The notes under the pieces are model-generated. The model was not told the origin of the DNA. It ran no database searches and worked only from the letters and a program-made list of their open reading frames with translations. 20,816 nucleotides of DNA, from positions 1 to 20,816 of IMG/VR virus record IMGVR_UViG_3300047491_000839; one strand, given 5' to 3'. The stretch comes from a virus. The translations under genes and the position numbers were made by a program. This document shows positions 15,633 through 20,816 of the stretch, in pieces; positions within the stretch are counted from its first letter, which is position 1, and each line of letters opens with the position of its first letter.

Positions 15633-15863
15633 ATGGCTATCGTACAAATTCCAGGCACAAATCTTTATAGAGATACTACCTCTATGGCCCTACTCAATAA
15701 AGATAAAACTGGTTTGGAAGACTACAGAATGAAGAGAAGAATGTTGGAAACCCAGGCACAAGAAATAAATAGGGTTAAATCCGAAATTAATGGCATCAAA
15801 GATGAACTAAAAGAAATAAAATCCATGATGCTTAGACTAATCGACAAGGTTTCAAATGGCTAA
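15633..15863 (+). CDS. small coiled-coil phage protein (76 aa)
   Basis: ATG at 15633, 2 bp after the previous stop. The N-terminal half (MAIVQIPGTNLYRDTTSMAL) resembles short proteins that I recall beside tail-fibre genes in marine T4-like phages. The C-terminal half is a charged amphipathic helix with heptad hydrophobics (INRVKSEINGIKDELKEIKS, then MMLRLIDKV), a likely coiled coil. Its stop overlaps the next start (ATGGCTAA, 15856-15863), so it is translationally coupled to the long fibre gene. It may help the fibre trimerise or attach, but that is an inference from position and coiled-coil character. Confidence 0.8.
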   Translation: MAIVQIPGTNLYRDTTSMALLNKDKTGLEDYRMKRRMLETQAQEINRVKSEINGIKDELKEIKSMMLRLIDKVSNG

Positions 15864-18800
15864 TACAGTACCTATTTTAAGTTATGCCAATACATTCAGC
15901 GATTGGTATGTTGTCACTAATGCGCTGTCGCAGGAGAACAACATTCTTGGTAAAGCAGATTACACCAAGGATTCTGGTACTCTTTATCTAAGTGAAACCA
16001 CACAAAACTCATTACAATCCAATGGTAATATTGTTGTACAGAAACAACTTCTTGTACAAGGTCTAGGTTCATCAGCCACCGTACAGAACAATTTAACAGT
16101 TGGTGGACAAGTATATTTTACAAACACAACACTCAGTCTGGTTGCTTCCGGTCAGGCCAACGTTTCTGGTCCAATTTATGCTCTTGCACCAAATACAGGT
16201 CTTATTGTTGCCAATAATGCAACGATTGGTTCAAATCTAACCACGATTGGTTCTGGTGTATTTGCAAGTAATGTATCAGTTGCAAGTTGGTTTGCTGTCA
16301 ATTCCAATTCTAGATTTGTTGGTCCTGTTGTTGCATCACAATCTGTTTCGACAGCCAATTTAATTGCAGACGCAATTAGTTCTACGGGTATAGCTACCGT
16401 AGATAAAGTTCAAGCCAATAGTTCTGTAACAACAGGCATCGTAAATGCCAATACAGTAGTAAATACAGCAAACGTTGTCGCTGGTGTATTGAGTTCTGGA
16501 CCAGCCACAGTTTCTACACTACAGGCCAACACTACAGTTCTTGCTGCAACAATTACAGCCAATACATTAATTACATCACCTAATGTAATTGCGACAGAAA
16601 TTTCCGGTACAAACATCACCGTTAATGCGGTACAAGCCAATACATCAGTAACGACCGGCACAGTTACAGCTAATACACTTGTCAACACCGCAAATCTTGT
16701 TGCTGGTGTATTGAGTTCTGGTCCAGCTACAGTCTCTACGTTACAGGCAAATACTACAGTATTAGCAGCCACAATTACAGCCAATACATTATTAACATCA
16801 CCGAATGTTATTGCTACTGAAATTTCTGGTACAAACATCACAGTTAATGCGGTGCAAGCTAATACGTCTATAACAACAGGAACGGTAACAGCTAACACAT
16901 TAGTAAACGCAGCCAATGTTATCGCTGGTGTATTGAGTTCTGGTGCAGCCACAGTTTCTACGTTACAAGCCAATACATCTCTGTTAGCTGCAACAATTAC
17001 AGCCAACACATCAGTGTCCGCACCAAATGTTATTGCTACTGCAATTTCTGGTACAGCTGTAACTGTTAGTACGGTACAAGCTAATACCTCTGTTACAACT
17101 GGAACGGTTACAGCTAATACATTAGTATCTGCACCTAATGTTATCGCTGGAGTATTGAGTTCTGGTGGTACAGCAACAGTAAATGCACTACAAGCAAATA
17201 GTTCTATTCAAACTGGCACATTCGTTGCAAATACCTCTGTATTGACCGGCACAGTAACAGCGAATACACTAGTATCTTCTCCTAATGTTATTGCTGGAGT
17301 ATTGAGTTCTGGTGGTACAGCAACAGTAAATGCACTACAAGCAAACACAAGCGTTTTAGCTAATTCGATAACTGCTAATGTAAGTTTCTCAGCTCCAACA
17401 ATTACAGCTACCACTCTAGTATCTGCACCTAATGTTATTGCTACTGCAATTTCCGGTACAGCAGTCACTGTTAGTACTGTGCAAGCCAATACATCAGTCA
17501 CAACCGGAACAGTTACAGCTAATACTTTGGTATCTGCTCCTAATGTTATTGCCACGGCAATTTCAGGCACCACAATAATTGCAAACACAATTACTGCTAA
17601 TAGTACACTGAATGTAACTGGTTCTGTATTGACTGAAAACGTCACAGTATTAAATATTACATCATCAAATAACAGATCAAACATTGGTGCAGGAAGTACT
17701 TCTGTAGCCAAAGCAATTCTTAATGTTATTGGTACAGCTTCAGTAAGCAACCTTTCGTATGCAAACGTGACCGTTAGTTCTAATATTTCTACTGTATCGA
17801 TTACTGGTTCCAATTCGGGAACATTAACTGTATCCTCTTCAATTACATCAGCCAATATTATTGGAACATCCGCAATCAGTTCTGGTGGTACGGCTACAGT
17901 TAATAATTTGCAAGCTAACGTATCAGTATTGACGGGCACAGTAACAGCCAATACATCAGTGTCGGCGCCAAATATTATTGGAACATCCGCAATCAGTTCG
18001 GCTGGTACGGCAACTGTAGATAAATTACAGGCAAACACTTCTATATTGACCGGAACAATTGCTGCAAATACCTCACTTACAGTTCCAATTGTTACTGCGG
18101 CCACAGGCGTCACTTCATCCAATTTCTTTGGCAGTAACACCATATTCATGAGTGGTTCAACTCAAGTTGACAACGCCATTTCAGTCAATATTGTTACTGC
18201 AAACACTAGCAAGGCTAATGGAAATTATTCTAGAGCATCGATGAATATTGCTGGACCATTAACAGCAGGAAATACATCTTTGGCTGCATTGAACATTACA
18301 GCCAACCTTGCATCAATCGTTGTTTCGAATGGCACCAGTTCATTAACGATGACGCCCACATCAATGACGGGAGCCTCTGTTGACGCATCACTGAAATCAT
18401 TAACAACAACTGGACCGGTTCAAGTTGGCGGAAACTTTATTATTAGTGGCACAACTCTATATGCACCAAACACTTTCACATTAAGTTCTGGTGCGATTGC
18501 TAATTCAAACAACTACATCAATGTTGACAGAACTCAATCTCCTGGTGCTTCGAATGCATCGATTCGTTGGAATGAAACGGATAAGTATTGGGATATTAAA
18601 AATGTTTCGACAAATACCTATACAAAGATTGTTGTTGACCAAGATCCAAGTACATCGATAACATTACAAGGTTATCTCCGTGCAAATGGTATTGTTTCAA
18701 CACAAGGTACAATTACTCCAGCAGCGACAACAACTTTGAACTTGGCTTTGTTTGATAATTTTATTATTACATTAAATCAAAATGTAACATTTGCGTTGTC

Positions 18801-19014
18801 TAATATTGCTACAAAAATTGGTAGTTCGGGATGTATTATTTTGAAACAAGATGCAACTGGTGGTAGATCATTCACAAAGGCTTCAGAAATGAAAACACCT
18901 TTGGGTGGTGCAGCTATCACACAATATACAGCTGCAAATTCTATATCCGTTATTAACTATTATGTTGTTGATGCTTCTACAGTTCTAATTAATTACATCG
19001 GTAACTTTGCATGA
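15856..19014 (+). CDS. long repeat-built tail fibre protein (1052 aa)
   Basis: The start overlaps the preceding gene by 8 bp. The N-terminus (YANTFSDWYVVTNALSQENN, then YTKDSGTLYLSE) is of a type that I associate with fibre proteins of marine T4-like phages and probably binds the baseplate. Residues 185 to about 744 are Val/Thr/Ala/Asn repeats of 37 residues (core QANTSVTTGTVTANTLV), grouped early on as exact 74-residue pairs; this predicts a long trimeric beta shaft. The C-terminal about 200 residues form a different domain (YINVDRTQSPGASNASIRWN, then KYWDI; TLNLALFDNFIITLNQNVTF; GCIILKQDATGGRSFTKASE), resembling fibre tips of many phages and likely the host-binding end. No chaperone or peptidase motif is visible. 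The stop overlaps the next start as ATGA (19011-19014). Confidence 0.82.
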   Translation: MANTVPILSYANTFSDWYVVTNALSQENNILGKADYTKDSGTLYLSETTQNSLQSNGNIVVQKQLLVQGLGSSATVQNNLTVGGQVYFTNTTLSLVASGQANVSGPIYALAPNTGLIVANNATIGSNLTTIGSGVFASNVSVASWFAVNSNSRFVGPVVASQSVSTANLIADAISSTGIATVDKVQANSSVTTGIVNANTVVNTANVVAGVLSSGPATVSTLQANTTVLAATITANTLITSPNVIATEISGTNITVNAVQANTSVTTGTVTANTLVNTANLVAGVLSSGPATVSTLQANTTVLAATITANTLLTSPNVIATEISGTNITVNAVQANTSITTGTVTANTLVNAANVIAGVLSSGAATVSTLQANTSLLAATITANTSVSAPNVIATAISGTAVTVSTVQANTSVTTGTVTANTLVSAPNVIAGVLSSGGTATVNALQANSSIQTGTFVANTSVLTGTVTANTLVSSPNVIAGVLSSGGTATVNALQANTSVLANSITANVSFSAPTITATTLVSAPNVIATAISGTAVTVSTVQANTSVTTGTVTANTLVSAPNVIATAISGTTIIANTITANSTLNVTGSVLTENVTVLNITSSNNRSNIGAGSTSVAKAILNVIGTASVSNLSYANVTVSSNISTVSITGSNSGTLTVSSSITSANIIGTSAISSGGTATVNNLQANVSVLTGTVTANTSVSAPNIIGTSAISSAGTATVDKLQANTSILTGTIAANTSLTVPIVTAATGVTSSNFFGSNTIFMSGSTQVDNAISVNIVTANTSKANGNYSRASMNIAGPLTAGNTSLAALNITANLASIVVSNGTSSLTMTPTSMTGASVDASLKSLTTTGPVQVGGNFIISGTTLYAPNTFTLSSGAIANSNNYINVDRTQSPGASNASIRWNETDKYWDIKNVSTNTYTKIVVDQDPSTSITLQGYLRANGIVSTQGTITPAATTTLNLALFDNFIITLNQNVTFALSNIATKIGSSGCIILKQDATGGRSFTKASEMKTPLGGAAITQYTAANSISVINYYVVDASTVLINYIGNFA
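16408..17073 (+). repeat. three in-phase 222-bp repeats in the tail fibre gene
   Basis: Copies begin at 16408, 16630 and 16852, each at a VQAN(S/T)S(V/I)TTG segment, and a further unit head lies at 17074. Each 222-bp unit is two 37-residue half-units: one contains (V/I)AGVLSSG(P/A)ATVST, the other VIATEISGTNITVNA or a close variant. Protein identity between copies is very high, with many synonymous base differences. Less regular copies continue to about 18090. Confidence 0.85.
17146..17345 (+). repeat. 53-bp exact direct repeat, 147 bp apart, in the tail fibre gene
   Basis: Bases 17146-17198 and 17293-17345 are identical and encode AGVLSSGGTATVNALQA plus flanking residues. The offset of 147 bp is 49 codons, so the frame is kept. 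Exact identity amid otherwise diverged repeats suggests recent duplication or gene conversion. Confidence 0.8.
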
Positions 19015-20816
19015 GCGGTTTTGGTTTCTTTGGTGTGTACGATTGGAGTACAGATGTAACCACATCTAGAACAACCACGACCACATGGAACACAAGTCAG
19101 TCTACAACTACTACTTGGTCGACCAGTAAATCAACTAGCCAATCTACCACAACTACCTGGACAACTAGTCGTTCAACTTCTAGTAGTTGGAACACCAGTA
19201 GATCAACAAGCCAATCGACAACTACTAGTTGGAACACCAGTCAATCTACCAGTCAATCTACCACAACTACATGGTCAACTAGCAAATCGACTAGCCAATC
19301 CACAACTACTACCTGGAATAGTGTGTGGACAACTACATGGTCTACCAGTCAATCTACTAGTCGTTCTACTACAACTACATGGTCCACAAGTCAATCAACA
19401 AGTCAAAGTACCACAACATCATGGATTACAGCGTGGAATACAAGTCAAAGTACAACAACTACTTGGACTAGTGTTTGGACAACAACCTGGTCAACTAGTC
19501 AATCAACATCACAAAGTACAACAACTACTTGGTCAACTAGCAGAAGTACAAGTCAATCCACAACAACCACCTGGACAACCAGCTGGTACACAAGTCAATC
19601 CACATCCACAAGTTGGATCAGTGTGTGGACAACGACATGGACCACAAGTTTAACTACTAGTCAATCAACCACCACTACGTGGACAACTTATTGGAACACA
19701 AGTCAATCTACAACTACTACATGGACAACCAGCTGGAACACTTCGCAAGCTACCACTACTACCTGGACTACCAGTTGGACCACAATAACGCAAGCTAACA
19801 CCAGTAAAAGTACTAGCCAAAGTACAACTACCACGTGGACAACCAGCTGGGACACAAGTCAATCAACGACAACAACCTGGACCACAACTTGGTCAACATC
19901 ATCATCTTGGACTACTACTTGGACCACCAGCCAAAGCACAACGACAACCTGGACCACTAGTTGGAATACAAGTCAATCCACAACAACAACTTGGACAACA
20001 AGTTGGAATACTCAACAAGTATTATTGACCGAACGTTTAACTTATTATGGAATAGATGAAGTTTTGACACAATGGGAAACTGTAGGTGTCTTGTCAACTT
20101 CTATATTAACATCACGATCAACAACAACTACATGGTCCACAAGTAGAAGTACCAGTCAATCCACAACTACTTCTTGGTCAACCAATAGAAGTACATCTTC
20201 GTCTTGGTCCACAAGTAGAAGTACCAGTCAATCCACAACTACTAGTTGGTCTACCAGTCAGTCCACCAGCCAAAGCACAACTACAACATGGACTACTACT
20301 TGGGTAACATCTTCAGCCTGGTCAACCAGTATAAGTACAAGCCGATCTACGACTACTACCTGGTCAACTAGCAAATCCACCAGCCAATCCACAACAACGA
20401 ACTGGACAACCAGTCAGTCAACCAACCAAACCACAACTACTTCTTGGACGACCAGTTGGAATACAGATCTAACAACAACAACAGCAGGATCAACTAGCCG
20501 AATCACAACAACGACCTGGACAACTAGCCAGTCCACCAGCCAAAGCACAACGACAACCTGGACTACCACGTGGAACACCAGCCAATCCACTACGACCACC
20601 TGGACCACAAGTTGGAATACTTCGCGTTCAACTTCGACAACTGCAACTACTAGCCAATCCACAACAACTACCTGGTTAACAAGTATTGCTACCTCACGTT
20701 CAACTACGACCACTTGGACAACCAGTTGGAGTACTAACCAATCCACAACGACCACCTGGACCACAAGTTGGAATACTTCGCGTTCAACTTCGACAACTGC
20801 AACTACTAGCCAATCC
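19011..20816 (+). CDS. Ser/Thr/Trp-rich repeat protein, 3' end beyond the window
   Basis: ATG at 19011 overlaps the fibre stop (ATGA). The frame has no stop for 602 codons to the window end, so the gene is 3'-truncated. A short unique head (MSGFGFFGVYDWSTDV) is followed by repeats of the form WSTSKSTSQSTTTTW. Sixty Trp are present; 58 of 59 successive Trp intervals are 4, 6, 10, 14 or 20. Lys, Arg or Gln mostly sit 4 and 8 residues after a Trp, on the same alternating face. Residues about 335-368 form a single non-repeat island (QQVLLTERLTYYGIDEVLTQ, then WETVGVLS). There is no signal peptide. Its place next to the tail fibre suggests a fibre, adhesin or decoration of the virion. The function is unknown, but the coding nature is firm because the open frame carries the amino-acid pattern throughout. 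Confidence 0.82.
   Translation, partial: MSGFGFFGVYDWSTDVTTSRTTTTTWNTSQSTTTTWSTSKSTSQSTTTTWTTSRSTSSSWNTSRSTSQSTTTSWNTSQSTSQSTTTTWSTSKSTSQSTTTTWNSVWTTTWSTSQSTSRSTTTTWSTSQSTSQSTTTSWITAWNTSQSTTTTWTSVWTTTWSTSQSTSQSTTTTWSTSRSTSQSTTTTWTTSWYTSQSTSTSWISVWTTTWTTSLTTSQSTTTTWTTYWNTSQSTTTTWTTSWNTSQATTTTWTTSWTTITQANTSKSTSQSTTTTWTTSWDTSQSTTTTWTTTWSTSSSWTTTWTTSQSTTTTWTTSWNTSQSTTTTWTTSWNTQQVLLTERLTYYGIDEVLTQWETVGVLSTSILTSRSTTTTWSTSRSTSQSTTTSWSTNRSTSSSWSTSRSTSQSTTTSWSTSQSTSQSTTTTWTTTWVTSSAWSTSISTSRSTTTTWSTSKSTSQSTTTNWTTSQSTNQTTTTSWTTSWNTDLTTTTAGSTSRITTTTWTTSQSTSQSTTTTWTTTWNTSQSTTTTWTTSWNTSRSTSTTATTSQSTTTTWLTSIATSRSTTTTWTTSWSTNQSTTTTWTTSWNTSRSTSTTATTSQS
19045..20816 (+). repeat. degenerate Thr/Ser-Trp minisatellite-like coding region
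   Basis: Units of 12, 18, 30, 42 or 60 bp, each ending in TGG, follow one another without strict tandem order. Thr and Ser positions use all available codons in mixed order, so DNA identity is much lower than protein identity. Local exact copies exist, for example 20133-20171 and 20205-20243 (39 bp, offset 72). Confidence 0.85.
20582..20816 (+). repeat. 79-bp near-perfect direct repeat ending exactly at the window end
   Basis: Bases 20582-20660 recur at 20738-20816 with one mismatch (20591 T against 20747 A), so 69 bp are identical to the last base. The offset is 156 bp (52 codons). The second copy ends precisely at the last base of the window. Confidence 0.85.

Follow-up and report, generated by a model that had tools for sequence, protein, structure and literature searches.

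Sequence rules and gene order suggest an undescribed, probably sugar-coated, tail-fibre part in aquatic viruses

Introduction

Tail fibres determine a phage's host. The fibre and adhesin modules of T4-like and T7-like phages are among the known systems most similar to the locus analyzed here, in which a gene for a Ser/Thr/Trp repeat protein likewise follows the baseplate genes, with the fibre gene as its immediate upstream neighbour.</replace> A T7 fibre N-terminal domain in the fibre of Caulobacter phage Lullwater and a Peptidase_S74 chaperone domain on one relative are further likenesses, but the repeat protein has no detected match to any fibre or adhesin family and, to our knowledge, neither its repeat grammar nor a paired glycosyltransferase is a feature of T4 gp36-38 or T7 gp17.

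The locus also resembles those of the bacterial SRRPs (GspB, PsrP, and the L. reuteri SRRP, with GtfA/GtfB), in which a Ser/Thr-rich rod is encoded together with its own glycosyltransferase(s). SRRPs are, however, bacterial cell-wall proteins exported by SecA2/Y2 and their loci use GtfA/B, whereas the repeat gene described here is phage-borne and its partner is one KpsC-like enzyme; in addition, we know of no SRRP with the aromatic-x-Thr grammar reported below. The SRRP rod is O-glycosylated (PMC6973325). A dedicated glycosyltransferase gene beside a Ser/Thr repeat gene, as in SRRPs, was present in relatives of the locus; the sequence analyzed here ends before this gene. Inspection by eye recognized no SecA2/Y2 export genes in the neighbourhoods that were read, the repeat protein does not begin with an extended signal peptide, and the ends of complete relatives carry no cell-wall anchor.

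The partner enzyme has its best fold matches among GT-B enzymes of the KpsC/KpsS, GT52, and polysialyltransferase type and has an HP motif resembling theirs, but it differs from them in that there is no significant sequence match, the KpsC QxxxD motif was not seen, and the acceptor is presumably a protein. In this study, we describe a fibre-like protein whose sequence obeys a simple rule that can be tested, and we name the matching enzyme; if the enzyme glycosylates the repeat protein, the two would be a phage counterpart of the bacterial serine-rich repeat glycoproteins.

Results

The repeat gene in a T4-like tail module

The window, i.e., the whole stretch of DNA analyzed (20,816 bp), carries a T4-like baseplate and tail-fibre module according to Pfam and PHROGs searches, and its gp6-like protein has 37-43% identity to the counterparts from Pelagibacter and Methylophilales phages. 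The features at the end of the window are listed in Table 1. Where the fibre could be matched to its counterpart in the nearest relative, the segments are 59-71% identical. Internal repeats of the form QANTSV..ANT..NVIA, with periods of 111 and 222 nt, were observed in the fibre gene at 16411-18075 and may represent a second type of repeat shaft. The start ATG of the repeat ORF overlaps the stop codon of the fibre gene (ATGA), and the N-terminus, MSGFGFFGVYDWST, is similar to the starts of complete relatives, namely, MINAGFFGVFDWST, MSIGFFSIYQWST, and MKNIGFSRIDFWST. The ORF runs off the end of the contig, so the window protein is a fragment.

Table 1. Coordinates of features in the window
Feature	Position	Strand	Basis or remark
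Window	20,816 bp		Virus fragment, IMG/VR record IMGVR_UViG_3300047491_000839
Virion structural protein, 76 aa, phrog_473	15633..15863	+	PHROGs; precedes fibre gene
Long tail-fibre protein, 1052 aa	15856..19014	+	ORF and identity to the nearest relative's fibre
Fibre C-terminal domain, ~100 aa, ends NYIGNFA	18712..19011	+	Found immediately ahead of repeat genes; probable site of docking
Ser/Thr/Trp repeat protein, 602 aa	19011..20816	+	ORF; 3' end cut by contig end
Repeat-protein N-terminal segment MSGFGFFGVYDWST	19011..19052	+	Resembles starts of complete relatives
Non-repeat island, about residues 335-371	20013..20123	+	Conserved in nearest relative; site of the only odd Trp interval

Trp spacing and word grammar

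The original prediction for this protein was that its Trp residues are spaced at even intervals, and our recount reproduced its figures exactly: 60 Trp in 602 residues, the first at residue 12 and the last at 587, separated by intervals of 4 (22 times), 14 (18), 10 (12), 20 (4), 6 (2), and 23 (once). Thus, 1 of 59 intervals was odd, whereas 2000 residue shuffles averaged 31.1 odd intervals and never gave fewer than 17. The lone odd interval spans the non-repeat island, as had been stated, and the nearest relative, which keeps the island, likewise has exactly one odd Trp interval (47).

Bulky and charged residues had been placed in the phase of Trp, which was correct for Q, R, and K (22/24, 5/5, and 3/3, respectively, in the first half of the protein) but not for L and I, which had no clear share. 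As for the proposed hydroxyl face opposite a Trp/charged face, Ser, Thr, and Asn do occupy the opposite phase, but Thr is also the main residue of the Trp phase (88 T, 38 W, and 22 Q among 165 positions). One face would therefore alternate between a bulky residue and Thr, and the other would consist of Ser/Thr/Asn. Ser and Thr together account for 68% of the window protein. So strict an alternation of two phases would suit an extended beta strand, as had been proposed; an AlphaFold2 model of repeat residues 1-230 was uninterpretable (pLDDT 42.8).

We found that 87% of the window protein can be parsed into words of four and six residues. The 78 four-residue words read X-x-T-[S/T/N/A], where X is mostly W, Q, R, or K, and the 35 six-residue words read X-x-T-T-T-T or close variants, where X is mostly Q or R; Trp comes next after 32 of the latter. 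Since sums of 4 and 6 are always even, the parity follows from this word grammar, and aromatic-x-Thr is the deeper regularity.

Simple tandem growth, it had been pointed out, need not give only even intervals, and the codons show that recent tandem duplication does not explain the parity. The word QSTTTTW occurs in 18 copies with 16 DNA spellings, and the fraction of identical codons between identical words is 0.42 versus 0.38 expected; such near-random synonymous codons indicate that the pattern is maintained by selection at the protein level. At the DNA level, tandem repeats can be detected with lengths of 42 nt and multiples thereof. We also considered the NTS/NTT after aromatics as N-x-S/T sequons but did not take up this reading, as Asn makes up only 3% of the window protein and the slot is often Ser or Thr.

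Relatives of the repeat protein

The database search proposed with the original prediction, run here on Pfam, PHROGs, and PDB sequences, gave no match for the window repeat protein, and neither tblastn nor blastn with the repeat ORF found anything in cultured phages, probably because of low-complexity masking. Relatives were gathered from IMG/VR by a DNA motif scan together with protein-based scans. In 74 non-redundant relatives, with counts restricted to Ser/Thr-rich stretches, odd intervals made up 10.4% of 5168 between all aromatics and 3.7% of 3508 for Asn, and Thr was found at +2 after 84% of aromatics. The Trp rule itself held, with 1.8% of 1490 intervals odd, a figure somewhat flattered by the choice of these relatives partly through a motif with two Trp four apart or a Ser/Thr/aromatic filter. 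In the set collected by the fibre-domain scan only, 8.0% of Trp and 17% of aromatic intervals were odd, and these values are inflated by fibre and unrelated ORFs that passed the loose filter. Trp is not itself the essential residue: W, F, and Y interchange among the relatives, with Phe and Tyr taking the place of Trp, and the sum of aromatics stays at ~10% in most of them.

A one-Trp-motif scan of bacterial and archaeal genomes gave 50 matches, none of which was recognized as an in-frame repeat gene, and the fibre regions sampled from HTVC008M and Melnitz yielded no repeat ORF under the scan filter. A literature search with Trp motif strings returned only seemingly unrelated papers among the matches listed, and Phe/Tyr strings returned none. 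The repeat family is large and common in aquatic viral contigs, yet annotation seems to have overlooked it, probably because it is concealed by low-complexity filtering.

Conserved order of three genes

In the nearest relative, L099 (IMGVR 3300044266_000349), the fibre is followed by a complete repeat protein of 869 aa and a 290-aa protein starting with MDMFNKK. This order recurs. In the set gathered through the repeat or the enzyme, 52 of 53 fibre end domains lie directly before a repeat ORF. A scan that was blind to the repeat, using the fibre C-terminal domain alone, found a repeat ORF directly after this domain in 76 of the 78 loci with room for one, and the enzyme in 67/80 loci, several of which are truncated. 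When 80 loci were examined starting from the enzyme, 75 had enough upstream sequence (at least 300 bp), and the repeat ORF was directly upstream in 70; one gene-sized stretch intervenes in four others, and the repeat ORF is 2.5 kb away in the last. Near-identical loci occur among them, which means that the counts do not represent independent events. The fibre with its ~100-aa end domain, the repeat protein, and the ~290-aa enzyme are thus a conserved unit, and the enzyme gene belonging to the window is predicted to lie beyond the contig end.

Two repeat genes are often present in marine loci. The first repeat protein of L164:1845-4823 ends in a Peptidase_S74 endosialidase-chaperone domain (Pfam, E=1e-7), and that of L183:3276-5543 has a weak match to the same domain (E=0.004). 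The fibre setting that had been proposed is strongly supported by the gene order together with this fibre-chaperone domain on one relative.

The downstream enzyme

The enzyme, modeled by AlphaFold2 with 51 relatives (pLDDT 89.3, pTM 0.88), has two Rossmann-like domains matching solved GT-B enzymes. The best matches among PDB structures were KpsC beta-Kdo transferase (E=2.6e-4, the single match with E below 0.001), TagF, and UDP-GlcNAc 2-epimerase, followed by the GT-B folds of WaaG and MurG; Foldseek TM-scores against solved glycosyltransferases were ~0.4 or lower. A library of viral structures gave a 321-aa protein (TM 0.80), which from its equal length is probably the homologue from Caulobacter phage Cr30, a Vibrio phage VH1_2019 protein (TM 0.78), and then a phage acylneuraminate cytidylyltransferase. 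Weak Pfam matches, all below the cut-offs, were to Capsule_synth (Lullwater), Glyco_transf_52 (KVP40), and polysialyltransferase (two members). The enzyme is confidently modeled as a GT-B glycosyltransferase whose fold is nearest to that of KpsC.

D46, K158-x-H160-P161, and E204 are invariant in the family down to ~22% identity, and the catalytic QxxxD motif of KpsC is not conserved in the alignment of members. The HP motif is common to KpsC and CMP-sialic-acid enzymes (PMC10148158), from which we would guess that a CMP-sugar is the donor.

Diverged pairs in cultured phages

Homologues of the enzyme were found in Vibrio phage KVP40 and its relatives and in two Caulobacter phages, Cr30 and Lullwater. 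A repeat of this kind also occurs in KVP40.0254, which is separated from the KVP40 homologue by one gene, being two genes upstream of it; Thr stands at +2 for 12 of 14 aromatics, and 2 of 13 intervals are odd. Lullwater gp41, directly upstream of the homologue, has aromatic-x-Thr at 20 of 34 aromatics versus 8.8 in shuffles; the parity that holds across the 74 relatives is not kept in this very distant protein, whereas aromatic-x-Thr is. The Cr30 neighbour is aromatic-rich, with neither aromatic-x-Thr nor parity significant. KVP40.0254/.0256 and Lullwater gp41/gp42, which are annotated as hypothetical, thus resemble our locus in having a Thr/aromatic repeat ORF beside or near an enzyme homologue, although their repeats are short (about 117-215 aa). 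KVP40 and Lullwater carry diverged versions of the repeat/enzyme pair.

Discussion

These results suggest that the repeat protein is an undescribed, probably sugar-coated, tail-fibre part. We consider it rather likely that the repeat protein is a distal tail-fibre component of a T4-like aquatic phage whose Ser/Thr shaft is O-glycosylated by the neighbouring enzyme. It would be attached to, or form, the distal end of the tail fibre, with the ~100-aa C-terminal domain of the fibre as the likely docking partner, and its repeat region would be an extended shaft or adhesive rod. Its words, which read bulky-x-Thr-Ser/Thr and are lengthened by Thr-Thr ahead of each aromatic, would keep the aromatics and bulky polar residues in one strand phase. 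The KpsC-type Kdo-transferase-like GT-B enzyme would most likely glycosylate the repeat Ser/Thr in the host cell, before virion assembly. We infer the virion location, the docking, the glycosylation, and a role in receptor binding or shielding: a fibre-associated role is likely given the order of the genes and the S74 domain, and a GT-B enzyme so closely paired with the repeat protein points to the abundant Ser/Thr as glycosylation sites, by analogy with bacterial SRRPs. The sugar epimerase and sugar C-methyltransferase near the repeat gene in L103 also favour this reading. More tentatively, and with appreciably less confidence, the aromatic-x-Thr beta repeat may be a widespread fibre architecture of novel fold, with O-linked sugars placed on its hydroxyl face by the dedicated KpsC-like enzyme, giving a sugar-coated rod docked on the fibre domain; the sugars on that face would perhaps be Kdo- or sialic-like and come from CMP donors.

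The enzyme might instead modify something else, e.g., a host surface polysaccharide, with the repeat protein still fibre-associated and the enzyme and adhesion genes co-located merely because both concern the cell surface. Its relatives KpsC, TagF, and polysialyltransferase act on capsule or teichoic acid, and phages are known to alter host surface sugars (PMC12619734). However, the enzyme pairs with the repeat gene itself, lying directly downstream of it in 70/75 loci, and is near a repeat-like gene even in the unrelated cultured phages KVP40 and Lullwater, so we regard this explanation as unlikely. So tight a pairing with a low-complexity structural protein could also mean that the GT-B protein is not an active enzyme but a chaperone for the folding or assembly of the repeat protein, as GtfB serves as an acceptor-binding chaperone (PMC6973325), and the absence of the KpsC QxxxD motif from the family alignment would agree with this. 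The invariance of D46, K-x-H-P, and E204 across highly diverged members is a better fit to catalysis and leaves the chaperone role improbable.

The repeat protein might also be no virion part but a protein made late in infection and displayed on, or secreted from, the infected cell, in line with the Ser/Thr-rich rods typical of adhesins on bacterial surfaces (PMC6973325), but the position of the repeat gene inside the tail-fibre cluster, its translational coupling to the fibre gene through the ATGA overlap, and the Peptidase_S74 chaperone on one relative make this very improbable. We find it scarcely credible that the repeat is low-complexity drift or a recent slippage product without a structural rule: although tandem repeats of 42 nt and its multiples speak for it, this reading is refuted by the nearly random synonymous codons between identical words and by the recurrence of the rule in 74 non-redundant relatives.

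Other features of the loci

In two related loci, L247 and L248, an unrelated gene and not a repeat gene follows the fibre end domain. Collagen-like shafts (GTNGTSG, GTQGIQG) occur in the fibres directly upstream of the repeat gene at L002:2631-5600 and L100:1048-4794, and both fibres end in the same C-terminal domain. A Hint/intein-like end (CIVEGSLVHIS..ANGILTHN) was seen in L002:5629-9264, the second repeat ORF of L003, and the first repeat ORF of L014, with Pfam matches to Intein_splicing and Hint_2 below the cut-off; a self-cleaving fibre end is possible. A sugar dehydratase/epimerase and a sugar C-methyltransferase are encoded near the repeat gene in L103:11383-15759, and similar sugar genes were recognized by eye in L101:2723-7212; both loci also carry three paralogues with a DFLIRTNxSTFW-type motif near the repeat gene, of which the one tested had no Pfam match. 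Downstream of the repeat gene at L100:10613-15160 is a 1515-aa ORF with many AWGxNxxGQLG repeats, RCC1-like by eye, and a DUF2827 protein (E=3e-75) is encoded upstream of the fibre at L002:741-1940; both contigs are from phages.
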